Shown: in pieces, positions 1 through 23,196 of the stretch
How the letters are laid out: each line of letters starts with the position of its first letter
Numbering within the stretch: position 1 is the first letter of the stretch
Virus record (IMG/VR): IMGVR_UViG_3300006802_000540
Location: 1-24,491 of that record
DNA: 24,491 bases
Origin: a virus
Reading direction: 5' to 3' (one strand)
Made by a program: the position numbers and the translations under genes
Notes under the pieces: generated by a model
Databases searched by the model: none
What the model was told of the DNA's origin: nothing
What the model saw: only the letters and a program-made list of their open reading frames with translations

Positions 1-50
1 AAATAAAGCTTCTCGCCCATGTTGTCTATGATAGTACACCGGAGACATTT

Positions 51-596
51 ATGAAAGACAATTTTGATTTTTCTGCTCTAAAAAAGAAGAAGCGTAAGAA
101 CAGTCGTACAAAGGGTAACACTTTTGAAAGAAAAGTTTGTGGGATCTTAAACGAGCACTTCAATACTACAGATTTTAACAGGTCTCCGGGGTCAGGAGCG
201 TTTGCTAACACGCACAAATTACCAGATCACTTAAAAGTTTACGGGGACCTTCTAACCCCTCTTAATTTTAAATATATTATTGAATGTAAGAAAGGTTATA
301 ATAAAGAAGGATTAGGAAGTTTATTTAATAAGAAATCAGATGTTTACAATTTTATCAAACAAGCATCAGATGATGCAAGAAAAATCCAGAAAAAATGGAT
401 AGTAATATTTCAGCAAGACAGAAAAGATACACTTGCTATATTACCTCATAATGATATCTTATCTATTTCCGCTGGAATAAAGTATCACTTTGTAATGTTT
501 GGTGATGATATGGAGGGATGGAATGTTATTATGAAGTTAGAAGACTTACTTAAGTTAACTACTTACGAATTTTGGATCGGCGGGAAGAGCCTTTAG
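51..596 (+). CDS. PD-(D/E)XK-type nuclease, possibly Holliday-junction-resolvase-like
   Basis: This 181-aa protein is the only plus-strand gene. It has a Lys/Arg-rich start (KKKKRK, 11-16), then a layout typical of PD-(D/E)XK nucleases: an early helix glutamate (FERK, E26), an RSPGSG stretch at 44-49, a GD pair with D66, and the E-x-K core E78-C79-K80 in a beta-strand context (YIIECKK). Together E26, D66, E78 and K80 would form the metal-binding and catalytic set. Hjc-like resolvases and small phage endonucleases share this arrangement, so branched-DNA cleavage or host-DNA degradation are both possible, and specificity cannot be read. Start: ATG 51 has GGAG at 41-44, a good spacing. However, the frame is open upstream to base 3, so a longer protein beginning outside the window is not excluded. 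Its last 38 nt overlap the 3' end of the convergent 940-aa gene. Fold call fairly sure, function unsure. Confidence 0.7.
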   Translation: MKDNFDFSALKKKKRKNSRTKGNTFERKVCGILNEHFNTTDFNRSPGSGAFANTHKLPDHLKVYGDLLTPLNFKYIIECKKGYNKEGLGSLFNKKSDVYNFIKQASDDARKIQKKWIVIFQQDRKDTLAILPHNDILSISAGIKYHFVMFGDDMEGWNVIMKLEDLLKLTTYEFWIGGKSL

Positions 597-3381
597 TGTC
601 TGATCCTTGAACATCATAAACGGTACGTCTATGAGACAAAGCACTCATTCCAGCTTTATTAACAACACCAACAGTTTCTCCACCACTTTTTGAATTACCT
701 GTAAACTTAGTTGTAATAGTTAAGCTTGCATCTTGCGTTGGAGCATCAGGGTCACTTCTACTAGCTTCTTTTTCAGTAGAAATTCTTATTCCATCTGCTG
801 TTACAAAAATTTTATGATCTTCGTTAGCTCCTTTTGTTCTTGCCATTCCTATAATTGCCTGAGCAAAATGTTCTAGTATACCATTATGAGAAGCAACACC
901 AACGGTTCTTGACCCATAATTAGTATGTGATATAGGCAGATCATCTATAGATACTCCGAGTTTACTAAACATAGTAGCAGCTAAAACTTCTGCTTCTTCC
1001 ATATTACCACTTCTAATTTTTCTAGCACTAGCTTCATTCATTAAGAAATTTAAAGCTTTTTGAACACATTGAGTTGCATACTCTGGATTTTCTTCATACT
1101 TTGAAGGATTATCAATATCCTTTAGAATATCTCTAAGTCTTCCATACTCTACATCTGTATCATCTTCGGAAGTAAGTCTACTAAAAGTTTCTTCGTCGGT
1201 TGGAATTCCTAGTTCAGAACAAGCTTTTTTTAGCATCCCTGCAACCATTGTTAATTTTTGACCAGTAACTTCTTTACCTCCAATTGTTCTAGTTATTTTT
1301 TCGGCAGTGTCATTTCCTATCTCTACTAATCTAGCACTTCTTCTATTGGATTCTTTTAAAGCCTTTACGATTCTTCTATTTATGTCAGCTTCATTTGCGG
1401 TAGTACCTTCTGGGGTAAATAGCTTACCCAGCCTAGATCTTACAGACCCTAGACGATCTTCAAATTCTTTTTGTGTTAGAGGTACTGCATTTAATTTTTC
1501 TGTTACAAATTTATTGTATTCTTCCATAGCCAGTTTTGCTTCCGGGGAATCAAAACCTTTTTCTAAAGCAGTTATCATAAAATTTGTTTCTATAGTATGA
1601 TGTTGAGATTTGATGGTAGCTAGTTTAGTATTTCCATCGGAATCTAAAGAGTTCTTTATAGAATCTTCCAGCATATAGATTTTAGTTTCTCCATTTGATT
1701 TAGCTTTATTAATCAAATAATCTAAATCAAAACCTCCTCTATCTTCTGGTATTAACCTTTTTAACTCTTCTACATCGTTTATATCAATTTCCTGCAATTT
1801 CATTCCTAGAAAGTCTGCTGCTTCCTTTGCCTTGTTTTCATCTGCATAAAAATATCTAATGTCCTGTCTTCTACCTCCACCTTTTACTTTACCTCCTACA
1901 CCAACTGCATGGTCTGCATTTGCCAGTGCTTTATTAAAGTCTGCAGAGTAGAACATAACCATACCAGCTACTTTATTACATAATTTAACAAACAGATTTT
2001 TTGTTTCTTCTTTTTTTTCTTTCTCAGTTAATTTTTCAAGTTGTTTTAATTGGTCTTTATATTGATCTCCTAATATAGGAGTAAGCTCTGCTATTGCTTG
2101 AGAGATACCCTCAATATACTCAGCAGATCCTAAAGCTGCTTGTTGGTCTACGGCTAAGTTTGCTAACTCTCTAACATTTACAACAAGTGTTTTAACTCTT
2201 TCAGAAAATTCATTGTCTAATTGTTTTATTTTTTCTCCTAAGTTAGCACATCTTTGTGCAAGTATTTTTCTATAATTTTCGTCTTTACATTTTTCTAAAT
2301 CATCTCTAGCATTATTTAACTGAACCCTTGCTACAGTTAATTGTTCTAATATATTACCGAAGACTCCTGAATAAGCATTTGAATATGTTTCTACATCTAG
2401 TGCTTTTAATTCTTGCTTTGAGTCTTTAAATTTTTCTATAGCAAGACCTTCAAAGACTGCTCTGGATATTCCAGCATAAGGTAAAGATATGGCTAGTGAT
2501 TTATCCTCAGAATAAATTAATATTCTATATCTTCCATTTGTGGTAGGGCTTTTTACTATTTTGACGCTATCTTTATATTTTTGTCTATCACTAGCTGTCA
2601 TTTTATCACTTGATAATAATTTTGATAAATGATCAAATACCTGACTGACCATTCTAGCTCGTTCTTCGTCACTAGCTTCTACATATGTTCCATCAGCGAG
2701 TCTTGTTCTTTGTACAGACGCATCCAATATTTTTCTTCTTAAAGAATATTGACCATCTCCAAGGAATCTTTCTATAAATTTTTCAATCCCATCTGACATT
2801 AACCTAATATAGGATTCATCTGTGTTAGTTAAAGCTTTATTTTTTCTTTCTTCCATAACTTTTTTAATTAATCTTTTCGCTCTAGCTAACAATCCTCCGT
2901 CTGAGTTATGAGCTTTTCCTAAATCATCTACTACCCTATTTGCCTCAGTAATAAATAAGCTAACTGGTTGTTGAATAGTAGGATCTATGGCAGCTTCTTG
3001 TTCTTCGGGTTTCTCTTGAGGTGTATCCCCACTCCCATCTCCTTCTGATTTCCATACCCACAAAGTTTTGTTGTTACCTAAATCAACTTTTTGTGGTTTA
3101 TGGATATTAGGTCCGGGAACTACTTGATTAACAATTTCTGGATTTGCTAAAAGATAATTCTGAAGTTCAGCACTTTTATAGCTTTGTAAACCTTTTATGG
3201 TGAATGGAAGTTTATACGATTTTTGATCTGGTAGTTTTCCTTGTGCAGAGTAATTAAATACTGGGGGACCAGTGTTTTCTTTATTAGGATCCTCAGCCTC
3301 CAAAATGGTAGCTTCAAATATACGAAGGTTTCTTTTTGAGTGCTTGCTAAACCATTCCAGTATTTCAACAAAGTAAGACAT
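559..3381 (-). CDS. Large virion-associated protein, candidate head-packaged and ejected protein (unknown function)
   Basis: I do not recognise this 940-aa protein. The N-terminus carries prohead-protease-type sites, (L/I)-x-E followed by Ala: IFE23|A24, ILE28|A29 and ITE146|A147. Between the last two lies an acidic Pro/Gly-rich segment (about 111-135). Residues about 320-460 look helical and coiled-coil-prone. A Gly/basic stretch GGKVKGGGRRQD (about 496-507) is followed by a beta-like segment, and the C-terminus is basic (SSRRSKIRK). In T4 the gene after the tube (gp19) is the portal gp20, but nothing here resembles a portal. The cleavage motifs instead suggest a protein packaged in the prohead core, comparable in role to T4 Alt or the internal proteins; that role is inference. 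It sits just past a terminator, so it needs its own promoter. I see no clear Shine-Dalgarno before ATG 3381, only an AT-rich TATAATAATGT leader. Coding status is secure, role uncertain. Confidence 0.6.
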   Translation of the reverse strand: MSYFVEILEWFSKHSKRNLRIFEATILEAEDPNKENTGPPVFNYSAQGKLPDQKSYKLPFTIKGLQSYKSAELQNYLLANPEIVNQVVPGPNIHKPQKVDLGNNKTLWVWKSEGDGSGDTPQEKPEEQEAAIDPTIQQPVSLFITEANRVVDDLGKAHNSDGGLLARAKRLIKKVMEERKNKALTNTDESYIRLMSDGIEKFIERFLGDGQYSLRRKILDASVQRTRLADGTYVEASDEERARMVSQVFDHLSKLLSSDKMTASDRQKYKDSVKIVKSPTTNGRYRILIYSEDKSLAISLPYAGISRAVFEGLAIEKFKDSKQELKALDVETYSNAYSGVFGNILEQLTVARVQLNNARDDLEKCKDENYRKILAQRCANLGEKIKQLDNEFSERVKTLVVNVRELANLAVDQQAALGSAEYIEGISQAIAELTPILGDQYKDQLKQLEKLTEKEKKEETKNLFVKLCNKVAGMVMFYSADFNKALANADHAVGVGGKVKGGGRRQDIRYFYADENKAKEAADFLGMKLQEIDINDVEELKRLIPEDRGGFDLDYLINKAKSNGETKIYMLEDSIKNSLDSDGNTKLATIKSQHHTIETNFMITALEKGFDSPEAKLAMEEYNKFVTEKLNAVPLTQKEFEDRLGSVRSRLGKLFTPEGTTANEADINRRIVKALKESNRRSARLVEIGNDTAEKITRTIGGKEVTGQKLTMVAGMLKKACSELGIPTDEETFSRLTSEDDTDVEYGRLRDILKDIDNPSKYEENPEYATQCVQKALNFLMNEASARKIRSGNMEEAEVLAATMFSKLGVSIDDLPISHTNYGSRTVGVASHNGILEHFAQAIIGMARTKGANEDHKIFVTADGIRISTEKEASRSDPDAPTQDASLTITTKFTGNSKSGGETVGVVNKAGMSALSHRRTVYDVQGSDTKGSSRRSKIRK

Positions 3382-3393
3382 ACATTATTATAG

Positions 3394-3434
3394 CTATAAA
3401 AAAACAAGCCTACCTTAGATAGATAGGCTTGTTT
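3394..3434 (-). terminator. Intrinsic terminator after the tail tube gene
   Basis: An 11-bp perfect stem pairs 3402-3412 (AAACAAGCCTA) with 3424-3434 (TAGGCTTGTTT) around an 11-nt loop. Read on the minus strand it is followed at once by seven Ts (3404-3398) and more AT. It lies 23 nt past the tube stop codon and upstream of the 940-aa gene, so it closes the neck/tail unit. Confidence 0.85.
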
Positions 3435-9067: not shown

Positions 9068-10690
9068 TCATCTATAAACTGATGCTGTACCTATTCCAGT
9101 GTTTCGGAATATGTTAGGAGCCATGTAATTCTTGCCTGCGCCAATGAGTCTAATGACTCTGTAGAATCTGTTGGCTGGGGCAATTGCTGCCTTAGCATAA
9201 CGGGTCATGATACCCTTTCTTGGTTGGAAGGTCTCAGGATCAGTTATGGTCTGGATTGGCATGAGTGGGATGTATGGGCAGTATACAAAACCAGCATCCA
9301 TTGGGTTGGTTCCGTTGTAACCAACGATGATCTCGTCTTCTGGGAAGAGAGGATCAACGATTAAGGTGTACTTGCCAGCAAACTTACCACGGTACTCAAT
9401 TCTGTTACCCATGTTGGTAGGACCATCTTCTCTAGCTAATCCACCCTCAAGCTTGGCGGCTGACTCTAGGAGTGAAGCAACCAGTGGTGAGGTGATTAGG
9501 ACTGTACCGGGACCACGCATTGTGGTGCGGTAAATGTCTTGTGAAGCGTGGTTTATCAGAGCAAGTAAGTTGCTGTAGATATGACCAACGTGTTGAGGAG
9601 CAAAGCTAATTCCAGTGAATCCTGCAACTGGATTAGTTAAATCTAGTGCAAAGACGTTAGAACGAGCAGTGTCATTTGTTGGGATTGGGACACTTCCGGT
9701 TGTGTTAAACTCGTACTCAAATGCTCCGGGAGTAAATGAGGTGCTACCATCTGGTGAGGTTCCATAAGTATTTCCAAAGTTATTAGCATTGTTATTATCT
9801 AATCTCTTTGGAACCCATCCGTAAGTATTTGTTATGCTATCTTGAGCAAATCCGTAAGCTATACCACGGATGTCTTCGATTAACTCGCGGTCGATCTCAA
9901 GTGAGATTTCCTTGCTAAGAAGATCGGTAAGTTCACGCTCTAGATCTAAATTGTGATAAGCCTTGAGGTCTTGTGTGGCCTCGATGGTCCACAAAGCTCT
10001 CATCTTACGGGTCTTAGCTACTACAGCTTGGCTTTGAATGTTAAAGCTAATTTCTGGAATAGCTGATGCTCTGAGTTGCTCACCAGCAGAAACGTACCAA
10101 GCTTCAACGGTAGTCTCATTTGGGAAAGCAGCAATCTTACCACCATAGGTAGTAGTAGGTCCGCCTCTTGTGTTACTTAATACGTTTGAGGTATTAAATC
10201 CATTATCAGCAAGAACCTTTGATCCAGTGAGACCACTACCGTTGCCTGTGAATGGATCATTCCAAGCACCATCAGCAGAGGTTGATCCGATACCTGAAGC
10301 AGTTAAGCCCAAGTATGTCATTTGATACTTGGAGTAGACTTGTTGCTGATCATAGTTTCCAGCATTGTTCTTTCCTGCACGACTGTTACCAATGTAGAAG
10401 ATCTGGCTGACAGGTCCTTCCATTGGTTGAGTTGATCCAATCATGTTGAAGATAAGATCAGGGAATACTCTACGAACGATTGGGAAGGCGAACTTTTGGA
10501 AGGTGCCTAACTTGCCAACGGTTGTAGCTCCGGGAGTAAGCTGCTCCTCGGTCAGTTTGCTAGCCTCGGTCAAAACGGCCTTGGCTTGGTTCTCTAAAAG
10601 TTGAGCGGTTACTTCAGCCATGTAGTCGGACTTGATTCCGTCTAGGGCCTTCTCCCACTTCTGTACGACGTTACTATCAATTTTTCTCAT
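9068..10690 (-). CDS. gp23: Major capsid protein precursor (T4 gp23-like)
   Basis: This 540-aa protein (T4 gp23 is 521 aa) builds the HK97-fold capsid shell. Residues 1-42 form the helical delta-domain-like propeptide ending AVLTE42|A43, directly comparable to the T4 gp23 cleavage site SFLTE|A. The next segment, VRRVFPDLIFNMIGSTQPM (72-90) and then GPVSQIFYI, aligns with the gp23 stretch RRAIPNLIAFDICGVQPM. The C-terminus has the family's PETFQPRKGIMTRYA motif. Cleavage by the gp21-like protease encoded two genes upstream would release the propeptide during maturation. ATG 10690 has AGGAG nine bases upstream. Base composition is visibly less AT-rich than the adhesin genes (26 of 60 G+C in one sampled line against 19 of 60), as expected for the most abundant late protein. 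It is the last gene before a strong terminator. Confidence 0.95.
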   Translation of the reverse strand: MRKIDSNVVQKWEKALDGIKSDYMAEVTAQLLENQAKAVLTEASKLTEEQLTPGATTVGKLGTFQKFAFPIVRRVFPDLIFNMIGSTQPMEGPVSQIFYIGNSRAGKNNAGNYDQQQVYSKYQMTYLGLTASGIGSTSADGAWNDPFTGNGSGLTGSKVLADNGFNTSNVLSNTRGGPTTTYGGKIAAFPNETTVEAWYVSAGEQLRASAIPEISFNIQSQAVVAKTRKMRALWTIEATQDLKAYHNLDLERELTDLLSKEISLEIDRELIEDIRGIAYGFAQDSITNTYGWVPKRLDNNNANNFGNTYGTSPDGSTSFTPGAFEYEFNTTGSVPIPTNDTARSNVFALDLTNPVAGFTGISFAPQHVGHIYSNLLALINHASQDIYRTTMRGPGTVLITSPLVASLLESAAKLEGGLAREDGPTNMGNRIEYRGKFAGKYTLIVDPLFPEDEIIVGYNGTNPMDAGFVYCPYIPLMPIQTITDPETFQPRKGIMTRYAKAAIAPANRFYRVIRLIGAGKNYMAPNIFRNTGIGTASVYR

Positions 10691-11364: not shown

Positions 11365-12438
11365 TTATTTCTTGCCGCCTTTTTTATTAGCGGCTTTTCC
11401 GTAACCACAGGACTTCATCTCTTGGATAAATTTTCCTGCAAATTTTTCGTACATGTTGGAAGCATCATTTCGTCTTGCTCGGGCTTCGGCTCTTTCTCCA
11501 GCAGCGTCTTTACCCTCTCCACCTTTTGGACCGAATTTGCTCCCACGAATCTTATCTTTTATTTTTGCACGTTCAGAAGGAGACTTTTCTCCAAAAGTTC
11601 CTCTACCAGTTCCGACTCTAGAAGGATCTTTTTCTGCTCTAGCTAGAATCAAATTCATGGTATCCTTGTTTTTTCTTTTGGTTTCTACAAGAGCAGCTTC
11701 TTCTTTTGTTGCTTCATTAGCTGGAACGCAGTTAGGTACTTGTCTACCACCTTTCATCTTCATTCCAACTTGCTTGTAGTTCTTCCAGCAAGGATCTCCG
11801 GCTCTCTTATCTTTTACTTCATCAACGCGAAGCTCATCAAGTTTGTTGTCGATCTTGGCTTCTAGCATTGATAAGAATACATTGCGACCAACAACTTTCT
11901 TTATTGTACTTTCTACAATTTTTGAGTTGTAATTCTTGCTTTCAGCTAAGGTTGGGAATGCGCCACGGGTCGAAGGATCAGCGACGATATCAAATGTTAA
12001 GAGCTTGAAATCCTCATTAACAATCTTATGTCCTTTACCTTCGCTCAAGGTTCCCATACCACGGCTAGAAATACCAATCTTGATTCCGTCTCTAATAAGT
12101 GCCTCAACAACCTTTCCGGCTGGGGTAGAAAGAATCTCAGCTTCTCCGATAACATCCTTGCCCTCGAAACGAAGGCTGGTTATAATATGGGAAGCATTGG
12201 ATAGCTTTACCATATCATAAGTAGGGTGATCTAGCTCACCTACACAACGACGCTCTTGGACAGCCTCTATGAGATTGTTAATTGCACTTTCTAATACTTT
12301 TTGAGGATAGATACGACCGTTGTTATTAGCTTCGTCGGCTCTTTGGAAAATTCCACGAACCTTCATGGGCTTTCCGGGTCCAGTAGACTCACTAATTACT
12401 TGTAAATTTTCTACTAGTCTAACGTCAGTTAATAACAT
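11365..12438 (-). CDS. gp21: Prohead maturation protease with long basic C-terminal extension (T4 gp21-like)
   Basis: This 357-aa serine protease matures the prohead by cutting scaffold, core and capsid proteins. The catalytic part (about 25-160) follows T4 gp21 closely: KVRGIFQRADEANNNGRIYP, GELDHP with H71 as candidate catalytic His, GISSRG with S124/S125 as candidate Ser, KIVNEDFKLLTFDIVADPS and a conserved Asp-Pro. T4 gp21 is only 212 aa. The 150-residue extension here includes a paired-Cys element (DPCWKNYKQVGMKMKGG, then VPNCVP; C217, C237), a Lys/Arg/Gly-rich region and a KKGGKK end. Self-cleavage sites are plausible at VISE17|S, LAE166|S and IVE176|S, which would separate the extension from the enzyme. 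The gene begins 2 nt after the preceding stop. Protease identity is confident; the role of the extension is unknown. Confidence 0.93.
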   Translation of the reverse strand: MLLTDVRLVENLQVISESTGPGKPMKVRGIFQRADEANNNGRIYPQKVLESAINNLIEAVQERRCVGELDHPTYDMVKLSNASHIITSLRFEGKDVIGEAEILSTPAGKVVEALIRDGIKIGISSRGMGTLSEGKGHKIVNEDFKLLTFDIVADPSTRGAFPTLAESKNYNSKIVESTIKKVVGRNVFLSMLEAKIDNKLDELRVDEVKDKRAGDPCWKNYKQVGMKMKGGRQVPNCVPANEATKEEAALVETKRKNKDTMNLILARAEKDPSRVGTGRGTFGEKSPSERAKIKDKIRGSKFGPKGGEGKDAAGERAEARARRNDASNMYEKFAGKFIQEMKSCGYGKAANKKGGKK

Positions 12439-12440
12439 AA

Positions 12441-12860
12441 TTAATCTTCTTTCGTACCCTTCTTTTTGTTTTTCTTAAAGTAGCCTTTAAGACTTGTTGC
12501 AGTGGACTTTCCATGACGAACCATTGTTCTAGCGGCATATTTCTTTACGTCTCGGAAACTAGAAGGGATACTTCCGGGACTAAATCCTTTTGCAACTCTG
12601 CCACCACACTCCTGCTCTTTATCAGTTCCCCATTTTCTTTTTGTAATTACATACAGTCTATCAGAACCTTTTGTTGAAAAGATCTGACCGACGTATCCAT
12701 TACATAAAGCGTCTTTTATACTTCCGTATAATTTAACTCTAGACTTTGTTGATATGCTGTGAGCTTTGCCCTTGCCAGAGAGCATCTTCTCTCTACCAGC
12801 CTTAGAACCTTTAGCTTTCTCGCTTCTTGATTCAGTTATGATTGAAAAGAGATCTAACAT
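12441..12860 (-). CDS. Basic head-internal protein with candidate 10-aa capsid-targeting peptide
   Basis: This 139-aa protein is strongly basic, with many Lys/Arg along its length, a GREKMLSGKGKAHS region, a central beta-like VGQIFSTKGSDRLYVITKRK, and a KKNKKKGTKED end. It starts MLDLFSIITE10|S11: exactly ten residues, amphipathic, ending in I-T-E. T4 internal proteins carry a 10-residue capsid-targeting sequence of this kind (for IPIII, MKTYQEFIAE) that gp21 removes, after which they remain with the DNA and are ejected. By analogy this could be a DNA-binding core or injected protein; its position, next to the protease in the gp67/gp68 region, fits. The start overlaps the preceding stop by one base (TAATG), with only a weak ribosome site. 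No specific activity can be read. Confidence 0.72.
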   Translation of the reverse strand: MLDLFSIITESRSEKAKGSKAGREKMLSGKGKAHSISTKSRVKLYGSIKDALCNGYVGQIFSTKGSDRLYVITKRKWGTDKEQECGGRVAKGFSPGSIPSSFRDVKKYAARTMVRHGKSTATSLKGYFKKNKKKGTKED

Positions 12861-13934: not shown

Positions 13935-14273
13935 TTAAATTGGACCTACAAATACATTGTTAGCAAAAGGAGTAAGAGAATTTATATATAAAGGAGCACA
14001 AGGTGGGCTTTGTATCTGATGAGCGGATGTAACAAAAGCTGTATTTGCTGGACCTACAAAGACCCTTGCCTCAACTAAGGGGTTAGGAGGAATTAAGGAA
14101 ATGTGTGTTATTGCAACCAAAATGTGTTCTGCTAGCTTTGCTGGCAACAACTCAGAAGTTACTGCGGCCAAAGATCCATTCACAAACACATTTAAGTTTG
14201 GGCTGGGGGGAACAAATGGTAAAGGCCCAACGTCTGTTATAACTGCATCTGTCTGTCTTAGCACATAACCCAT
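13935..14273 (-). CDS. PAAR-like tail-spike tip protein candidate
   Basis: This 112-aa protein looks like a divergent PAAR-repeat protein, the sharpening cone at the tip of contractile-tail spikes (T4 gp5.4, 97 aa). Three related strands recur: SPNLNVFVNGSLAAV (24-38), EARVFVGPANTAFV (68-81) and the C-terminal ANNVFVGPI (104-112). These mirror the N-V-F-V-N-G and terminal N-V-F-x-G of PAAR proteins. Known PAAR tips bind a metal through three His and one Cys; H57, H85 and C92, with H50 as a further candidate, could supply these ligands. There is no signal or membrane segment. The start overlaps the stop of the 911-aa gene by one base. The call rests on pattern, size and location among tail proteins; an unrelated small beta protein remains possible. 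Confidence 0.55.
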   Translation of the reverse strand: MGYVLRQTDAVITDVGPLPFVPPSPNLNVFVNGSLAAVTSELLPAKLAEHILVAITHISLIPPNPLVEARVFVGPANTAFVTSAHQIQSPPCAPLYINSLTPFANNVFVGPI

Positions 14274-17008
14274 TATCTATCTCCTGCTGTTATTATAGGT
14301 TCCCGAACTGTAACTTCTATATCTTCCGATTCCTCTGTAGATATGATTCCAGTTATAGTATCTTTATCTGTGGCAATAACATCTTTAATCGATATGTTAT
14401 ATAATTTTTTAACTAAATCTGTTATTAAGGTATAATCACCCCTAGTTACATACTCTCCCATTTCTGAGTATGTTAATCTGGAAAATATATCAAACCATTT
14501 TAATTCTTTTGGAGAATACTTTATAATTAAAGGTTGTATAATTTCTTTTATTATTTTAGCAACAATAGGTCTAGTTGAGGTTATTTGAGTTGGTTTATTT
14601 GAGTAACGGGTGTTGTCATAGTAATAAGTATTTGTATAAGAACTAGGATCATAAGAATAATAAAGTTTATCAGCGTACCCATAGTAATCTGGTGGTGGGC
14701 TGTCAGTTCTTTCTGTAGGTGCTTCTTTTAAAGATGTGTCTAACTCTTGGTTGTCTTTTACTTTTATAGTATTAATTAAAGTTATATTTCTACTAATTAT
14801 ATTATTATTAAAGTTTATAAATTCAGATTGACTATCAAATGGATTGTGTTCTGATCCACAACCGGGAACTAAAACAATAGCAAAAGGAATGTTTCTGGTT
14901 AATATAAATGAGCTATCGTGTGTCCCACTAATATAAAAATCAAAGTTTCTAAAAGTAATGTCCGACTTCTCCATTACAAAAGAACTAGAATCCTTTGCGT
15001 AAGTTAGTAAAGGATCTCTAAAGTCTAAATTGATTTTTGTTGTATTAAATCCATAATTAATAATTAGATCATTAATTCTAGATTCACTTGTTACAAGTTT
15101 ATAATTTGCTTTTAATTTGTTAAGTAAAGTTTGGGATTCATTTGTTATTACTACTGAAGATAACACTAATTCAAAGAATAGTGTACCTTCCTCATGCATA
15201 GTAAAAGTATCAGTAAGTTCGTTATTACTGCTGACAGAGCTAACTGTTATTGAAATTGTATCAGGTTCCCCCGCTGTTCTTAATGCTAAATTTCTAATTG
15301 TAGATGGAGTTAATAGAGCTTTTACAGATTCATTAGGGGTAGGAACAGATAACTGAACATCGTCAATGTTAGTGGTTTCGATAAAGTATCCATCACCAAC
15401 CCCTATCTCAACGAAATTATCCGTGGCATCTATGTCACTAAAACTGATACCAGCATCTTCTAAAAATATATCTAAATCTTGATTGTCTAACGTGGTTACT
15501 TCTATCCTAGAATTTATATCTGTATTTAATCTTTTTTGTCTTAGTAATTTAAACTTGTTATATCCATCATAATATCCCGGGTCAGCTAGTATCGCTCCAT
15601 TTTCCACAAGGGATATTACTGCCCTGTCTTTTAGTGTTTGAGTTGCAGGTTGACTTATACTTATCAACTCATCGTTTTTTTGTTTAATTGATAAATCTGT
15701 ATAAAAAGACGGATTAAATTCTTGTAACTTATTACTTATCAATAGGTTTTTTAATGTTATTAAAAAATCGTCTAAAGAAACTAAAGTTGATTGATTATCA
15801 TGAATTGATTTAAAAGAATTTAAAAGTGTATTATTAATACTCAAAGCTAACTTATCTAAAGTTAAATCAAAGTAAATTTTTTCATGCCACTTATTCGATT
15901 GTTGATTTTGATTTTTCTTTAAAAAGTAACTAACTTCTTCAGGAATTCTGTCTTTGAAAATGTCTAATCTTATAGAGTTTGAAACTATCTTGGTCTGTGT
16001 TGTTGGTGGGTAATCAAAAAAATTATAAGTCTCATCGTATAATTTATCTAAGTTTATTTTTATTTCTATTCTTTTATCATCGTCAAAATACATTGTATTT
16101 TTTTGTTCATCATATTTAATAGGCTTTACTTCTCTTACAGAGTCTCCGACTATTCTTAAATTTTCTGCTCTAGGACTTGTGTTAGGGGGAGGATTTGGTA
16201 AAGATCTTCTAAAAAATTCTGATGACTGTGCGTCATAAGTATTTCTTGAAATTTCTGTGTATTGAGATTGAGGAAGATATCTAGGCTTTTGATTATTTGT
16301 TAATCCTCTTGAGGGAACTTCAAAAGATAAATCAGGATCACCAAATAAAAATGACTGAATACACTCAGCCTCTGATCTATACTGACAGGGTTCGTTAGTT
16401 AAACAGGGCTCACAACTTTTTATTCCATTATTAACTACACCCTTGTATCTTGTCGGAACTTCAGTAATTTTAGGATTTAAAGTTCTACCTCTAGTATCAA
16501 CTGGAGTATTCTCCCCTAAAGTATTAGTAGTTTGATTAGTAACAACTACAGTTGATTCATTAGATCTTGGAAATAAAGCATTAGTAGTATTAATTTTAGG
16601 GGGTCTAGTTATGCCTGCACCAACAACATTTACTACTCCAGTTTGAGTTACTTGGGTTACTCCTCCCGGAAAAGTTCCTATTGTTCCTGTCTGAGTTGGA
16701 CCAGTAGGTATTCCCGTAGATACTCCTGCAGGATTCGTAGGAGTTCCTGTAGACTGATTTGCAGGCTCGTTGGGAACCACAGGGACTGAAGGGACAGTTG
16801 TGCTTGGGGGTCTTGGTTTTACCGTTGTAGTAGGTATGTCCGGTGGCTCTTGAATCGTAGGAGGGAATATTCTAGGCTTAACTCTCGGCCTAGTTCCAAC
16901 ATATGGAGGCTCTATAGTAGGTATATTTATTACGCCCCTAGATGTTAATCTATAACTTAATGGTCTTAACCCACCACAGTTAAAATAATTTGATAATCTA
17001 GAAGGCAT
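14273..17008 (-). CDS. Large virion structural protein with Pro/Thr-rich N-terminus and Cys cluster
   Basis: I do not recognise this 911-aa protein. The N-terminus (about 30-170) is a long Pro/Thr/Val/Gly-rich, low-complexity and probably extended region, with short repeats such as T-Q-T-G and P-T-G-P. A compact Cys cluster follows at C199, C202, C208 and C216 (SCEPCLTNEPCQYRSEAEC), suited to metal or disulfide crosslinks. From about 270 on the sequence alternates beta-rich and helical stretches with many Asn/Asp/Ser. The last 130 residues contain helices such as LKWFDIFSRLTYSEMGEYV and an acidic end. No enzymatic motif is visible. It sits between the 942-aa protein and the PAAR-like tip candidate, so a baseplate or fibre role is likely by context. 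The ribosome site before ATG 17008 is weak; reinitiation from the neighbour, whose stop is 6 nt away, is plausible. Confidence 0.62.
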   Translation of the reverse strand: MPSRLSNYFNCGGLRPLSYRLTSRGVINIPTIEPPYVGTRPRVKPRIFPPTIQEPPDIPTTTVKPRPPSTTVPSVPVVPNEPANQSTGTPTNPAGVSTGIPTGPTQTGTIGTFPGGVTQVTQTGVVNVVGAGITRPPKINTTNALFPRSNESTVVVTNQTTNTLGENTPVDTRGRTLNPKITEVPTRYKGVVNNGIKSCEPCLTNEPCQYRSEAECIQSFLFGDPDLSFEVPSRGLTNNQKPRYLPQSQYTEISRNTYDAQSSEFFRRSLPNPPPNTSPRAENLRIVGDSVREVKPIKYDEQKNTMYFDDDKRIEIKINLDKLYDETYNFFDYPPTTQTKIVSNSIRLDIFKDRIPEEVSYFLKKNQNQQSNKWHEKIYFDLTLDKLALSINNTLLNSFKSIHDNQSTLVSLDDFLITLKNLLISNKLQEFNPSFYTDLSIKQKNDELISISQPATQTLKDRAVISLVENGAILADPGYYDGYNKFKLLRQKRLNTDINSRIEVTTLDNQDLDIFLEDAGISFSDIDATDNFVEIGVGDGYFIETTNIDDVQLSVPTPNESVKALLTPSTIRNLALRTAGEPDTISITVSSVSSNNELTDTFTMHEEGTLFFELVLSSVVITNESQTLLNKLKANYKLVTSESRINDLIINYGFNTTKINLDFRDPLLTYAKDSSSFVMEKSDITFRNFDFYISGTHDSSFILTRNIPFAIVLVPGCGSEHNPFDSQSEFINFNNNIISRNITLINTIKVKDNQELDTSLKEAPTERTDSPPPDYYGYADKLYYSYDPSSYTNTYYYDNTRYSNKPTQITSTRPIVAKIIKEIIQPLIIKYSPKELKWFDIFSRLTYSEMGEYVTRGDYTLITDLVKKLYNISIKDVIATDKDTITGIISTEESEDIEVTVREPIITAGDR

Positions 17009-17014
17009 AACTTA

Positions 17015-19843
17015 TTAATCTAATCTAGTGTCTTCGTTTGGAATGTCCTCAACGTTATCATCGAAAGCCATAAGAACTGCATGGTTTTTCATTTCAGGAG
17101 CATTCTCTCCTATTTGTTGTGGCTCTACTCCCTCATGATTCACTATTCCGGGAACCTCATGTATTGAATTTGCAAAGTTTTTAAATGTTTTTGTATTTTC
17201 TGAATCTAAATCAAAAGTAGCTGTAGATGGGTGACCAAAAACAGTGAACTCCACTGAGGGGTATATACATACTGGTAATGCAGTAGATGGATAATTAGTT
17301 GCATCAGCAGTAATATCATTGTTATCGTCAACTTCGCTCGCCACCTGTGTAGCCGCATTGTCCTTAAACACAGACTTTGTATTTATAGATTCTCCAAACT
17401 CACTAGCTATAATACTTGAATCAACAAAAGAATTAAATAGGAGAGCATGAGAGGCTACTGCGAACAAATTATAACCGCTGTTAGTATTAGCATATTGCGT
17501 ATTAGTACCATTATAAGCTAAGTACTGCCTCTTCTCTCTTGTCCAAGGAGGATTAACTTTCCAAGTAGACCTAGTAGGTCCCATAGAGCAGAATATTGTA
17601 AACTCTATAAATGTTCTGTTACCAGAAGAAGTTAAAATATTATATCGTTTTCCTTTAGATACAGTAATTGCAGGCGATGCTTTATAGTCTGAGCCGTGTT
17701 CATGAAGGCTTGTGTCTTGTATAGGGAAACAATTCCAGTAGGAAGCAGCTACAGTTATTTCTTTTACCCAAGGTGTGTTCGTAACATCTAATCTAATAGT
17801 TTTTTGAACCCAGAAAGCAGTAGCTCTTCTATGTTCCCAAAAGTCAACATTTTGTACAGCATATTGGATATCATTAGAAGTTCTATTAGAAACACTTGGA
17901 TTATATATAAAAGGCCCAAAGTCTAGTTCAGAATTTCTAGTTGATATAAAAGGTTGATAAATCTTCTGCTCATTTGGATTTCTGAAAGTATACCATGCGC
18001 TTATTCTGTCAGTAATACCGTAACCTACAGCGGGATATCTTTGAGTATTTGTGCCTAATTCTCTCTCATTTCTATTTTTTACAGCCCAGTTAGCTAAGTC
18101 CCAGTCTGGCAAATCTTTTAGTTGGTAGTCTGAACCGTAATTGTAGATACTTTTAAATGCAGATATTGTTTGTTCTTTATCAAGATTGTATTTTATTTTT
18201 ATGGCTCTACATAAAGCACCTTCCACACCAAACCAAGCACCTCCTCTAATTAAACCTCTTGATACAATTTTACCTGCACCATGCCCGGTTTTTACTGAAT
18301 TAACTCTTATCTTAGCTATTTCTGTATCGGTATATTGTTTAGCTCTAGCATAGGTTTCCTTTGCTTTATCGTACACCACTGCTTCAGATGCTACAGGATT
18401 AGCCAAGGAAATAGAGGGAACTGCAGCAGCTATACCAGCCCTTTCACCATAAGTTAGCTCGGCAGTTCTAAAGAATGGTCTTATATCAATAATGTCTTCT
18501 GGTTCAATTATTTGATTACCTTCTTCATTTAAATTATCCTTTTTTACTACTATGTAAGCAATAGGCAGTATTGACTGACCAACTAAGGCATAATGATTAT
18601 TAGGCAACCAATCTGCTAATGCAGGAGCCATGTTCATTAAATCATCAGGAGAAGGGAATGATCCTCTAATACCTAGAGTTTTAAATCCTAAATTTTGGTT
18701 TAATTCGTCAGAGGGATTTCCAAGTATTTGATTTTCATAATCAGGAACAAAGAATTTGCTAGTAGGATTATTACCTTCTGCAAAATTTAGTGTAAGTCCT
18801 GCGCCTTTTACTATACCTAACTCAGCTTTATAAATTTTTCTAGGAATTTCTGATGACCAGCCTTGAGCAAGGTTAACTGCTGATGAATCAATTGGTTTAG
18901 AATAAATAAACAAGAGATCTATTCTTTGTGTAGCTTGTGCAGCAGGGCTAGCACCATTTGAACTATCAACAACAGATCCTAATTCATTGACATAACTATA
19001 ATCATCTGATTGAAAATTTTGTACTTCTATGGAAAGAGTTTGTGGTACGTCAACTACCGCTGTTCTAGCTATCCCTCTCCATCTTTTAATTAGTTGAGTA
19101 TCTGCCTTGAACAAATCAAAAAACCCTGAATCTGAGCTATCTCCAGATTTATATTGACCTACTCTAAGACTAGGTCCAGCAGAGGTTGCTTGATTAAATA
19201 GAAAATTTGTTACATGAGTTCCTCCCCATAAAAACTTTGGAAATGTAAATTCATCGTCTGTATCTAATCCAAAATTTGATTTTAAAGGATCAACACCATT
19301 AGTTGCTGTAGACGCAAGACCAGTAGTAGATAAATTTTTAAAAATAAACGATCCGAAGCTTTTTTCGGACAATCCATTCATTCCTAAAGCAGCAGTAGCA
19401 GTGTATTGTTGAAATCTAAAAAGAGTTGGTGATAGTAAAGTATTATTTATAGCAGCTATTTGCCATTCCTTGTACTTATCAATGTCAACCTCTCCAGTTC
19501 TTTGTATTATCTGTAGAGGATCAATACCATAGGCATCGTTTATCCTAGCCATGAATCTTCCCGGCTTTACAGAAACTATATTTGAATTGGTTCCTGAAAC
19601 AAATGGTTGAAGTTCTGTAAATGTTTCTCTGGATGTCCCAGCACCTATATTGGCACCATCATCAGGTAATTCAATACTTATGTTCTCAACAGCATCCTTT
19701 ATCCAAAGGATATTCTCTTCAAGTTGATTAATTGGAATATTGTCTACTTCATAATAATAAGGATCATTTGCCTTGTATTTACGGACAGGGTCTGTAAATT
19801 TATAATTTGTAGAACCACTTAAATTAAGACTAATAGTGACCAT
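17015..19843 (-). CDS. Large virion structural protein sharing an N-terminal domain with the beta-helix protein
   Basis: This 942-aa protein begins with a domain shared with the next gene upstream: D18-x-V-x-K-Y23, then YYEVDNIPI (30-38) and LEE (41-43). The same residues occur in the 1117-aa protein at a constant five-residue offset. This is probably a common attachment or trimerisation module. Following are FTELQPFVSG and VSVKPGRFMARI, then a long Ser/Thr/Asn-rich beta body with aromatic clusters, a helical YDKAKETYARAKQYTDTEIA near 490-510, and an acidic C-terminus. No catalytic motif is evident. Its start overlaps the stop of the beta-helix gene by one base, so the two are co-translated. 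It is likely a baseplate or fibre component; the exact T4 counterpart is not recognisable. Confidence 0.68.
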   Translation of the reverse strand: MVTISLNLSGSTNYKFTDPVRKYKANDPYYYEVDNIPINQLEENILWIKDAVENISIELPDDGANIGAGTSRETFTELQPFVSGTNSNIVSVKPGRFMARINDAYGIDPLQIIQRTGEVDIDKYKEWQIAAINNTLLSPTLFRFQQYTATAALGMNGLSEKSFGSFIFKNLSTTGLASTATNGVDPLKSNFGLDTDDEFTFPKFLWGGTHVTNFLFNQATSAGPSLRVGQYKSGDSSDSGFFDLFKADTQLIKRWRGIARTAVVDVPQTLSIEVQNFQSDDYSYVNELGSVVDSSNGASPAAQATQRIDLLFIYSKPIDSSAVNLAQGWSSEIPRKIYKAELGIVKGAGLTLNFAEGNNPTSKFFVPDYENQILGNPSDELNQNLGFKTLGIRGSFPSPDDLMNMAPALADWLPNNHYALVGQSILPIAYIVVKKDNLNEEGNQIIEPEDIIDIRPFFRTAELTYGERAGIAAAVPSISLANPVASEAVVYDKAKETYARAKQYTDTEIAKIRVNSVKTGHGAGKIVSRGLIRGGAWFGVEGALCRAIKIKYNLDKEQTISAFKSIYNYGSDYQLKDLPDWDLANWAVKNRNERELGTNTQRYPAVGYGITDRISAWYTFRNPNEQKIYQPFISTRNSELDFGPFIYNPSVSNRTSNDIQYAVQNVDFWEHRRATAFWVQKTIRLDVTNTPWVKEITVAASYWNCFPIQDTSLHEHGSDYKASPAITVSKGKRYNILTSSGNRTFIEFTIFCSMGPTRSTWKVNPPWTREKRQYLAYNGTNTQYANTNSGYNLFAVASHALLFNSFVDSSIIASEFGESINTKSVFKDNAATQVASEVDDNNDITADATNYPSTALPVCIYPSVEFTVFGHPSTATFDLDSENTKTFKNFANSIHEVPGIVNHEGVEPQQIGENAPEMKNHAVLMAFDDNVEDIPNEDTRLD

Positions 19844-22800
19844 TAATTTTTCCTCTTAAGATCAAACACATTCACAGAATACAAACCATTACCTAATTGT
19901 TTAAATGAATCTGACGCAGATTCTCCACCCTCATATTCTTCATAAGGATGATATATATTAACTAGTTTAGCCAAACCAGATTTACCAACTGAACAATGTT
20001 TAGCGTTAGCGAAAGTATTTGCGGCAGATTCGTCTAGCATAGCTCTAACACTTTTAGAGTTAGACATAATCGAGGATCCATAATAATATCCTGATAAGAA
20101 TAACCGTGGCGCGTTTCCTGTTAATAATGATTTGTGTATCGTACTAACACTACTAACAGCAGACATTGAGAATGGAGGTTGATAACCTTGAGAGTAAATT
20201 TGATTTAGCCAACCAGTATTGTAATATCCGTCTGTAGTGGTTTGAATACCACTAATTAAAAGTAAGAAATTAGCAGCAGGATCTACTGAGAAGTATAATC
20301 TAAATGGTCCTTGGTTAGCATGAGATGAAGTAAATAAACCTAAAGAAGATACTGAACTAGTCCATGCTCCGTAATAATCGAATATTGAGAGGCTGGACGT
20401 ATCAGGTGTCCCTGTTGGTAACCCTGATAGAGGTCTTCCACTAAATTCTAATGATGTAGAATTAAAAGATGACAACCATACAGACAATGGCCCGTGATAT
20501 CCGGCATTCTGAGGAAATAGCCCACTTACTGAGCAATAGCTTGCATTTAGTTTTGAATTATCACAAATGTTCCAAATAAACAAATAGGAACACAGCAGTG
20601 GATCTCCAGTAACATAATTATAGAAAGGACCAGAAGCATTCCACCATCCACAAGGGAAGTTAACATTTCTTACATTAACTATACTATCCTCAACCGCTCT
20701 TACACACATTCCACCCCTAGTAACAGAACTAAAATTATTAAAAGCAGTTGATTTATCTATTAAATATGAGTAATTAGTGAAGTTGTTATCTGCAAAACCT
20801 GTTGTAATCTGTTGATTAATATCTACATCATTTGGATTAGGGTAGAATTGTAGATGACCTCCCTTAATATAATCACCAGTATTCCCAATATCGTAATCTG
20901 GGATATCAGTTATTGCTTGCTGTCCTAAAGTAGTATTATTCCAACTTGATACATAATAACCTAAATCTTGTAAATTTATTACAGAAGATTTATTGGCGAC
21001 TACACAAGCTCTGTTGGAATGCAACTCAACCATTGTGTGATTCAATGGATCATTTAAGTTAAATTCAGATATTTGTAGATTGTTATTAGATTCATCTAAA
21101 TGAGGAGTAACGTTTAGTACAGAATTATTTTCTACTAAACAATCTACGTCGAATTGAGCTATTACTGTTGGTCCTTGAATATTTATTATTGAATTATCCC
21201 CAGCATAAGCTCCAGCAGAGTTTATTTTTGTTACTTGTGTTGAAGGTCCTTGAATTATGTTAGCATAATTTTTGCTACCCTTTAAAGTAAGTTTAGAATT
21301 ATTAAGAACTGAAAGAGCTAAACCATATTTTGCATAAGGATCACCATCAACAGTTGCAACGCTTGCATCATTTCTTATAATTTTTGGATGTACTAATAAG
21401 CATTTAGAAGAGTTAAATATTTTTATTGAAGGTTGAGAGTGTTCTAAAATATCTTTACTAACGGCATGAGAATCTTCAAACCTATGACCTCCTATTTTAG
21501 TTGGCATAGATGAAACGATATTACACTCATAATTTGAATTATTTAATAATAAATGAGTTCCATTTTTGTTATAATGGAACTGAGTGGCCCCAGCATCAGT
21601 AAAATTCTTATTGTATATAAAGTTAGAGTTATTTAAATGAACTCCATTTCTTTGATTATACCTTACGATAAATTTGTCTGTGTTTACGACTGAGTTATCA
21701 GCAAGTAACCCTGTATGGTTACCTTCTAATATTAATCTTCCGTCCCATTCAAATTGTGAGTTGAATAACTTAATACCTGCATAATTATTAAAGTCAGCAA
21801 TTAACTGAGTTGGTTTAGTCCCAGACACTCCTCCATAGAATTTAGAATTTTCTAAAATAATACCGTTTGCATTTTTATGGAAATTAATTGGATAATTCAG
21901 ACCATATGCAAGTTGATTAGTTCCCGTTAATGAAGTTGAGTAAACAGGATCGTTTACTGCTAAGTTATATTCAAATGCGCTAGTGGAACTAAAATTAACT
22001 TCTGAATTAACTGCTAGAAGTCCTGCACCTAAATCTTGTTGATAAGTTTCTGTGTCTACAACTCTAGGAGTATTATAATTTCTGTATGCAGCAATGCCTC
22101 TTGTTAAAATAACTTTAGAATTATTGAAATAGAATCCTGCTTTTCTGTTTCTTATACTTACACAATTTTCTAATACAATTTTTTCTGAATTGTTTATTTC
22201 TACTCCAACGTCATTTCTAGTACTAGGGTAACGTGAACCATCAATAAAGAAATTTCTAATATATATTGGACCATCACAATTCGTTACTAAAAGTTTACTT
22301 AACTTATTACCGAAGTATAAACCAACATAAGGCTGTAATGTTCCGGGAAGAGTTCCGGGAGCTATAACAGTTTTTACTTGAGTTCCTAAAGTTTCATCTG
22401 TAGCACTTATATCATAAGTAGTTGGTAAATCTACTGAAGTAACCTCTGGGAAAGCAAGAAGTTCATAAGGAGATAATTGAAGAACATCATCTCCATATGC
22501 TGTTAAAGATGGGGAACTAACATGATAAGTAGGAACCGTATAAGAAGTACTTTGATTAGTGTCTGCTCTTAATGAAATTCCATAAAGATTATTATCTATT
22601 GAAGCTAAATGACCTACGCTAGAAAAAATATTTTTATTTAAAAATTCAGATTTTGTATTGGCGAAATGTTGTCTTATTCCCAAAGTCGTTGCAGAGAGAT
22701 ATCCTAATCTTTCGTACCCAGTAGTTTCCGTTGCAGCTACTTTATTAATTACAGTATTCCCAGTATAAGGCTCTAACTTTCCAAATACTTTGTTAGCAAT

Positions 22801-23196
22801 CTCTAAAGAACCTCTAGCCCCACATTTTATATTTTTAAGATTTAATTCTCCTAAATCTTTCGTATTGCAAACTTCAATTATTACTGGGTAATTTAACACC
22901 TCAGGTAATGCTTCAATAGCATCTTGTAGTGTTTCAAAAATGTTCTTATTACAAAGGTAATCACCGGGGCTTCCGCCTGCTGACACGACTAAACCTACTC
23001 CCGGAAGACTTGATGTTGGGTGACCTAGCTTCTCCCAAAGGTAGTATGTTCTTTCTTCTAAATCATATATTGGAAGGTTGTCTTGCTCCCAATTGTAGAA
23101 AGAGCTTGTGTCGAACTTAGTAACTTTATCAGTCCAGCAATTGTATAGCTTTACTGATCCGCTAGCAGTGTAAAAGTCGTTATGAAGAAATACCAT
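19843..23196 (-). CDS. Beta-helix tail fibre / tailspike-like adhesin
   Basis: This 1117-aa protein is dominated by a right-handed beta-helix. After the N-terminal module shared with the 942-aa protein (D23-x-V-x-K, WEQDNLPI, LEE48) comes a typical beta-helix cap, NIFETLQDAIEALP then VIIEVCN. Repeated coils then carry N-x-S turns, each followed by a short hydrophobic strand: VEINNSEKIVLENC, FYFNNSKVILTRG, GIILENSKFYGG, GVHLNNSNFIYN, LVENNSVLNV and MCVRAVEDSIVNV, spanning roughly residues 75-835. The last 280 residues are a separate Ser/Gly/Tyr-rich region, possibly the receptor- or carbohydrate-binding tip. Such folds occur in tailspikes that bind or cleave surface polysaccharide; no active-site acids can be assigned, so enzyme activity is open. 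AAGGT precedes ATG 23196. Confidence 0.8.
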   Translation of the reverse strand: MVFLHNDFYTASGSVKLYNCWTDKVTKFDTSSFYNWEQDNLPIYDLEERTYYLWEKLGHPTSSLPGVGLVVSAGGSPGDYLCNKNIFETLQDAIEALPEVLNYPVIIEVCNTKDLGELNLKNIKCGARGSLEIANKVFGKLEPYTGNTVINKVAATETTGYERLGYLSATTLGIRQHFANTKSEFLNKNIFSSVGHLASIDNNLYGISLRADTNQSTSYTVPTYHVSSPSLTAYGDDVLQLSPYELLAFPEVTSVDLPTTYDISATDETLGTQVKTVIAPGTLPGTLQPYVGLYFGNKLSKLLVTNCDGPIYIRNFFIDGSRYPSTRNDVGVEINNSEKIVLENCVSIRNRKAGFYFNNSKVILTRGIAAYRNYNTPRVVDTETYQQDLGAGLLAVNSEVNFSSTSAFEYNLAVNDPVYSTSLTGTNQLAYGLNYPINFHKNANGIILENSKFYGGVSGTKPTQLIADFNNYAGIKLFNSQFEWDGRLILEGNHTGLLADNSVVNTDKFIVRYNQRNGVHLNNSNFIYNKNFTDAGATQFHYNKNGTHLLLNNSNYECNIVSSMPTKIGGHRFEDSHAVSKDILEHSQPSIKIFNSSKCLLVHPKIIRNDASVATVDGDPYAKYGLALSVLNNSKLTLKGSKNYANIIQGPSTQVTKINSAGAYAGDNSIINIQGPTVIAQFDVDCLVENNSVLNVTPHLDESNNNLQISEFNLNDPLNHTMVELHSNRACVVANKSSVINLQDLGYYVSSWNNTTLGQQAITDIPDYDIGNTGDYIKGGHLQFYPNPNDVDINQQITTGFADNNFTNYSYLIDKSTAFNNFSSVTRGGMCVRAVEDSIVNVRNVNFPCGWWNASGPFYNYVTGDPLLCSYLFIWNICDNSKLNASYCSVSGLFPQNAGYHGPLSVWLSSFNSTSLEFSGRPLSGLPTGTPDTSSLSIFDYYGAWTSSVSSLGLFTSSHANQGPFRLYFSVDPAANFLLLISGIQTTTDGYYNTGWLNQIYSQGYQPPFSMSAVSSVSTIHKSLLTGNAPRLFLSGYYYGSSIMSNSKSVRAMLDESAANTFANAKHCSVGKSGLAKLVNIYHPYEEYEGGESASDSFKQLGNGLYSVNVFDLKRKN

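Follow-up and report, generated by a model that had tools for sequence, protein, structure and literature searches.

A variable protein family of far-T4-like phages with a capsid-targeting-like tag and a nuclease-like core

The IMG/VR virus record IMGVR_UViG_3300006802_000540 is represented here by one stretch of 24.5 kb (24,491 nucleotides, nt; hereafter the window), in which a far-T4-like phage has its structural module. On the minus strand of the window, an open reading frame (ORF) of 940 codons beginning with ATG (559-3381) follows the tail tube gene. Its product, we tentatively propose, is an effector that is targeted to the head and has a nuclease-like core. This proposal draws on a conserved N-terminal tag that ends in a motif of the kind cut by the T4 prohead protease, on the near-invariant residues E346, D507 and K576, and on the exchange of the gene between phages together with its convergent neighbour, a nuclease gene. 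An initial annotation, made from the sequence of the window, had taken the protein for a head-packaged and ejected effector. This appears well aimed in kind.

The protein family

Related contigs were gathered by anchoring on the capsid, neck and tube genes. Iterative hidden Markov model searches of their ORFs recovered 49 homologues after the tube gene, and a scan with the conserved tag raised this number to about 110; 81 of these exceed 740 amino acids (aa) and 52 of those are non-redundant at 75%. Counts expressed below as x/52 refer to these full-length, non-redundant sequences. The homologues sit 3′ of the tail-tube gene in far-T4-like phages wherever the flanks are readable. One relative was found on a contig from the Prochlorococcus single-cell genome AG-409-P03, and at least some of the far-T4-like carriers may therefore infect, or may have been attached to, marine cyanobacteria.

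With a family of this size, the orphan status given by the initial annotation holds for curated libraries only. The window protein has no match in PHROGs, NCBIfam or PADLOC and no significant match in Pfam, and searches with the full protein, the core, a clade consensus and the whole alignment against Pfam, PHROGs, NCBIfam, PADLOC and PDB profiles returned only chance-level matches. Those of one or two family members to TelA and DUF6674 are coiled-coil-like and below the cut-off. A tblastn search with four family members against 50,697 phage records gave no relative. Short N-terminal matches had raised the idea of a tag fused to unrelated bodies; this was rejected, all such matches being full-length homologues.

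The N-terminal tag and its cleavage motif

Over the first ~20 residues most members conform to the consensus M-x-Y/F-F/Y-x-x-L/I-L-x-S-Y/F-x-x-L-K-K-R-K-L. The T4 internal proteins (IPs) reach the prohead core by means of propeptides of 10-19 residues; positions 4 and 7 are important for this targeting, and the work on T4 concerns residues 4, 7, 8 and 10 (PMC9026906). Residue 4 in the present family is F or Y in 49/52 members and L in 3, and residue 7 is L or I in 52/52, the window protein having F4 and I7. With an aromatic residue at position 4 and aliphatic residues at positions 7 and 8, the tag would fit the capsid-targeting logic of T4, whose ipIII and ipII start MKTYQEFIAE/A (here and below the slash marks the cut).

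T4 gp21 cuts after L/I-x-E (PMC9026906), and a protease of this type is encoded in the same genome (Table 1). The cleavage motifs which the initial annotation had noticed near the N-terminus, I21-F-E/A and I26-L-E/A, are both present, and the pattern is conserved far above chance. At the end of the putative propeptide, L/I-x-E starts at residue 21, 22, 23, 24, 25 or 26 in 51/52 homologues; shuffling residues 17-30 within each sequence (2000 shuffles) gave a mean of 18 and a maximum of 28. An earlier test with 35 members had found the looser L/I/V-x-E in all 35, compared to 21% of random windows from the same proteins. The residue following the motif E is most often A (14/52). The slightly shifting position of the motif and the variable P1′ residue fit a cut site rather than a helix register. 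Of other protein families, those of the module's protease and basic 139-aa protein carry L/I-x-E in about 92-93% of members, while in the tube, neck_287 and tail-fibre-like families it is not above their own background.

Behind the tag lies the acidic linker proposed in the initial annotation, with its net charge of -6. The basic tail of the same proposal exists in the window protein, whose last 41 residues carry a net charge of +6. It is not conserved among the relatives and was rejected as a conserved DNA-binding feature. Instead, most relatives end in a conserved amphipathic segment, FLxxQxxLLxxLL. A segment like SLMITFLKGQAKLLEQLLANS is found in most of them (L028-L093) and is absent from the window protein and from L003, L005, L007 and L021. 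L/I-x-E is also frequent in the C-terminal ends (42/52; shuffled mean 24, maximum 35), where it possibly marks a second processing site by analogy with T4 Alt.

The body and its nuclease-like core

Identity in the body is about 15-20% on average across the family; a hypervariable body is also a published trait of the T-even internal proteins (PMC3012670). When the core is aligned by itself (A6; 51 sequences, L006 being left out because its E column is misaligned), E346, D507 and K576 are the only invariant columns. Their contexts are RGxxxE, a G-rich-basic loop followed by D-x4-Y/F, and (S/G)-hydrophobic-K. In both AlphaFold2 models, that of the full-length protein (predicted local distance difference test, pLDDT, 72; predicted template-modelling score, pTM, 0.71) and that of the core (pLDDT 76, pTM 0.71), a long helix has E346 close to its start, D507 begins the second strand and K576 is part of the third, giving the order helix-E, beta1, D-beta2, beta3-K. 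This order and the predicted secondary structure look like motifs I-II-III of the PD-(D/E)XK nucleases (PMC8805305; PMC9635880). For motif I, the E of helix 336-364 is retained in 51/52 members and preceded by G at E-4 in 46/52; for motif II, D507 is present in 52/52 and opens strand 508-512. E and D are separated by a long helical stretch (109-182 residues), and profile searches with the core found no relative. We therefore call the core nuclease-like, a term based on sequence pattern and models, and do not place it in the PD-(D/E)XK superfamily. A nuclease-like activity of the protein seems probable to us.

The initial annotation had suggested that the glycine-rich basic GGKVKGGGRRQD region could belong to a nucleic-acid-binding domain and had proposed structure prediction and profile search as a check. 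It was too cautious on this segment, which carries the D507 of a set resembling a nuclease site. The check itself gave models with a pLDDT of 72-76 and E, D and K in nuclease-like order, profile searches without a match, and fold searches that were uninformative.

An alternative would make the protein a non-enzymatic component of the prohead core, structural or DNA-organising, in which E, D and K have structural roles. It would account for the tag with its cleavage motif, the position of the gene near head and tail genes and the long helices of the model. Three near-invariant charged residues in nuclease order, among sequences about 15% identical, are however the pattern of a catalytic site; exchange between near-identical phages (see below) would be unusual for a core scaffold, and the promoter class is non-late. 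We judge this alternative improbable.

Exchange of the gene with its convergent neighbour

The gene and the convergent nuclease gene next to it are swapped together between phages. Flanking DNA of the window and of the related locus L003 is 98.96% identical over 8.7 kb, a stretch that reaches to codon 23 of the 940-aa gene, and the two encode capsid, neck, sheath and tube proteins with about 100% identity. The 940-aa proteins are only 33% identical overall and 30% in the best-aligned part, and near-identity resumes where the convergent nuclease gene has its 5′ end. L005 and L007 present the reverse case: nucleotide identity is 95-98.6% across the homologue of the 940-aa gene and the nuclease gene, compared to 76-86% in the genes before them and 78% after them, and it changes at the start codons of the two genes. 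The convergent nuclease gene adjoins the homologue in 69/69 loci with enough downstream sequence, so the moving unit is a two-gene pair. A profile comparison between the 940-aa protein and this neighbouring nuclease revealed no similarity.

A switch within the gene was also observed. In L069 (6699-9626) and L072 (8125-10977), residues 1-210 are nearly identical and the rest is about 50-70% identical, which implies that one tag and linker can precede different bodies.

Expression

The T4 late box, TATAAATA, precedes structural genes in the window. As a promoter for the 940-aa gene it was rejected, being found in only 3 of 54 distinct upstream regions. A CTATRAT-like box occurs in 53 of these, 4-8 nt from the ATG in 47, and 53 fold stably. 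A -10 element at this distance implies a leaderless mRNA. The CTATRATA box is rare in the structural cluster, and by raw count the window has no more of them than expected by chance. Two long relatives, of 110 and 130 kb, have it in front of the convergent nuclease gene and of genes which we named by eye, from their sequence, as uvsX-like, uvsW-like and gp55-like. Boxes 4-6 nt before the ATG of such genes are seen in G001 and G002, for example at G001 9071-10057 (minus), 41573-41914 (plus) and 95415-96785 (plus); leaderless transcription may be common in these phages.

Membership of a promoter class shared with uvsX-, uvsW- and gp55-like genes favours early or middle expression. This agrees with a different reading, namely that the protein is an early or middle intracellular nuclease, made from its leaderless promoter with the recombination genes and never packaged, which degrades host or competitor DNA or aids phage recombination, and whose tag serves for docking to a conserved protein of phage or host. 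The same promoter class before the convergent nuclease gene, the terminator that separates the 940-aa gene from the late tube gene, the E-D-K core and the position at the edge of the structural cluster are all in line with it. It leaves unexplained why L/I-x-E is retained at shifting positions in 51/52 tags, and why these tags resemble those of small basic proteins described below. We consider this reading rather unlikely. The upstream DNA of T4 ipII and ipIII has early-type GTTTAC promoters, and the CTATRATA class is thus not decisive with regard to packaging.

Proposed mechanism

For a packaged effector, the first ~22 residues would be a capsid-targeting propeptide by which the protein enters the prohead core, and the phage's own gp21-type protease would cut after L/I-x-E, at I21-F-E/A and/or I26-L-E/A. 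A mature protein of ~912-917 residues would then stay in the head and be ejected along with the phage DNA. In the new host its E346-D507-K576 core may act on nucleic acid, whether host DNA, competitor DNA or a defence intermediate. Exchange of the gene and the convergent nuclease gene as one unit would provide near-identical phages with different effector alleles. Head targeting, as suggested by the tag, we regard as fairly likely; for head targeting, nuclease-like activity and ejection in combination, the prospect falls a little short of even.

Several points weigh against this reading, the principal one being the promoter class, which is not that of a simple late head protein. The tag of the window protein scores 2 against the T4 tag, where the background has a median of -5 and a 95th percentile of 6 (family median 5.5), and this direct likeness is not significant by itself. 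Profile A3, compared with the whole T4 genome, matched neither Alt nor the IPs nor any other T4 protein. Motif III of the PD-(D/E)XK nucleases is (E/D/Q)-x-K in strand 3, and its acid or Gln at K-2 is replaced by S or G in 49/52 sequences (S 28, G 21, E 2, T 1). Foldseek and VIA searches with the whole model and with the core were filled by long-helix or bundle matches and listed no PD-(D/E)XK fold, and are uninformative. A packaged active nuclease must, finally, spare the DNA of its own phage; live T4 heads can carry a foreign nuclease (PMC3012670). The initial effector interpretation is supported by the tag, the motif, the hypervariable body and the lack of portal features; the promoter class, the lack of a match to T4 proteins and the unconserved basic tail do not support it.

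In its fullest form the proposal would describe a nuclease of a new family which far-T4-like phages package in the head and deliver with their DNA. Its alleles would be swapped with the convergent nuclease gene, enabling near-identical phages to attack different DNA or evade different defences, and in a broader group of tagged internal proteins of these phages it would be the large one with enzymatic activity. This extended form is possible, though less likely than not.

Other tagged proteins

A scan of the two long relatives for N-termini of the same logic (an aromatic residue, an aliphatic residue, then L/I-x-E) found 13 ORFs, with 0.84 expected from shuffled N-termini; this enrichment is descriptive only, because the pattern was written after some of those ORFs had been seen. 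All but one (12/13) are small and strongly basic, and many share MNSYxRIYxLLxE, an example being MNSYERIYNLLTE/A. The small basic ORFs of the two contigs have no significant PHROG match. They probably represent a repertoire of internal proteins, with a shared capsid-targeting tag and different bodies, as is known for T-even phages (PMC3012670). Clusters of such ORFs, with differing bodies, lie on the minus strand at L172:1647-9352 (G002 121647-129355) and L178:3763-10617 (G001 103763-110620).

In the window, the basic 139-aa protein (12441-12860, minus strand) starts MLDLFSIITE/SRSEKAKGSKAGR..., a hydrophobic tag ending in L/I-x-E. Such a tag is found in 93% of the 28 non-redundant members of its family, and the protein is likely to be another processed head-core protein.

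Gene locus

The minus strand of the window carries, in order, fibre-like genes, acidic and basic core proteins, the gp21-type protease, a core protein, the major capsid protein, neck proteins, sheath, tube and then the 940-aa ORF (Table 1). Three large fibre-like ORFs (911, 942 and 1117 aa; 14273-23196, minus) have no PHROG match, and the first two have homologues in related contigs. The initial annotation described the locus accurately. The 940-aa ORF forms its own transcription unit, with a hairpin terminator on the tube side and, at its 3′ end, the convergent nuclease gene, the two genes overlapping tail to tail.

The gene also stands in the T4 portal slot, as had been pointed out: in a cyanophage the order is tube then portal, here tube then 940-aa gene. 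Its place directly after the tail tube gene could suggest a portal substitute or a tail protein in the slot of T4 gene 20. Portal_T4 (PF07230) is however encoded on five long contigs that carry the family, tens of kb from the homologue, so that the 940-aa gene is no portal substitute. A structural match to a known tail protein would have contradicted the effector interpretation; no portal or tail family or fold was found for the protein, in agreement with the absence of PHROG and significant Pfam matches. We rejected this assignment as extremely improbable.

Table 1. Position and support of features discussed in the text (window coordinates)
Feature	Position	Strand	Evidence or remark
Promoter box CTATGATA of the convergent nuclease gene	26..33	+	Sequence
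Convergent PDDEXK_15 / RusA-like nuclease gene, partner in the exchanged two-gene unit	51..596	+	Pfam PF24608 3e-25, PHROG 244
940-aa protein: conserved N-terminal tag, variable linker, core with invariant E346, D507 and K576, beta-rich C-terminal region	559..3381	-	ORF, family alignments, model pLDDT 72, pTM 0.71
H832-N833, second conserved patch	883..888	-	H 30, Q 12; N 36, M 9 (of 52)
Nuclease-like core, residues 332-614	1540..2388	-	Alignment A6, 51 sequences; domain model pTM 0.71
K576, strand 567-578, motif (S/G)-hydrophobic-K	1654..1656	-	52/52
D507, start of strand 508-512, after Gly/basic loop GGKVKGGGRRQ	1861..1863	-	52/52; DSSP
E346, helix 336-364, motif GxxxE	2344..2346	-	51/52 full-length, 51/51 in A6; DSSP
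Acidic low-complexity linker, residues 111-135	2977..3051	-	Net charge -6; low pLDDT at 114-165
Candidate prohead-protease site 2, I26-L27-E28/A29	3298..3306	-	Sequence; motif L/I-X-E from PMC9026906
Candidate prohead-protease site 1, I21-F22-E23/A24	3313..3321	-	L/I-x-E starting at residues 21-26 in 51/52 homologues
N-terminal tag, residues 1-22 (MSYFVEILEWFSKHSKRNLRIF), capsid-targeting-like	3316..3381	-	Best-conserved stretch of the family: Y3, F4, L8, F11, R17
-10-like promoter box CTATAATA, 4 nt before the ATG of the 940-aa gene; leaderless mRNA expected	3386..3393	-	Also in relatives
Intrinsic terminator between tail tube gene and 940-aa gene	3402..3434	-	14-bp hairpin then T-run; free energy (dG) -19 kcal/mol, z -3.8; also found in relatives
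Prohead protease, gp21 type, expected processing enzyme	11365..12438	-	PHROG 207, 2e-55

Significance and comparison with known systems

Among abundant uncultured phages, the family provides a candidate virion-delivered nuclease that can be put to the test, and near-identical phages with unrelated-looking alleles are natural pairs for asking what the variable body is adapted to. The rule of tag plus cut site could make it possible to pick out head-packaged proteins in uncultured relatives of T4 by sequence alone, which has been difficult so far because internal proteins do not keep their sequence.

The core resembles the PD-(D/E)XK superfamily in its GxxxE helix, a strand, a D starting the next strand and a strand with hydrophobic-K. 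It differs in having S or G in place of the acid at K-2 (49/52), in a helical insertion of 109-182 residues from E to D, and in the lack of a profile or fold match. The polyvalent proteins of phages and plasmids (Iyer et al. 2017, PMC5512222) are, like the 940-aa protein, large, probably injected and encoded near virion genes, and have a DNA-targeting domain. They combine two or more disparate catalytic domains, whereas the 940-aa protein has no recognisable set of several known ones in one chain; this was looked at with Pfam only, which gives no significant domain in the window protein.

Within T4 itself, IPI, IPII and IPIII share with the 940-aa protein an N-terminal targeting-like peptide ending in a gp21-type L/I-x-E and divergent bodies, and ipII and ipIII share a non-late promoter in front of the gene. 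The IPs are about 100-190 aa long, compared to about 900 aa here, and the present tag of about 22 residues with a basic patch, as well as the nuclease-like core, set the 940-aa protein apart from them. T4 Alt differs in its ADP-ribosyltransferase R-S-E site, where the present family has its E-D-K core, and in its gene neighbourhood. Like the 940-aa protein it is large and enzyme-sized, with packaging and processing by gp21 to be expected (PMC9026906).

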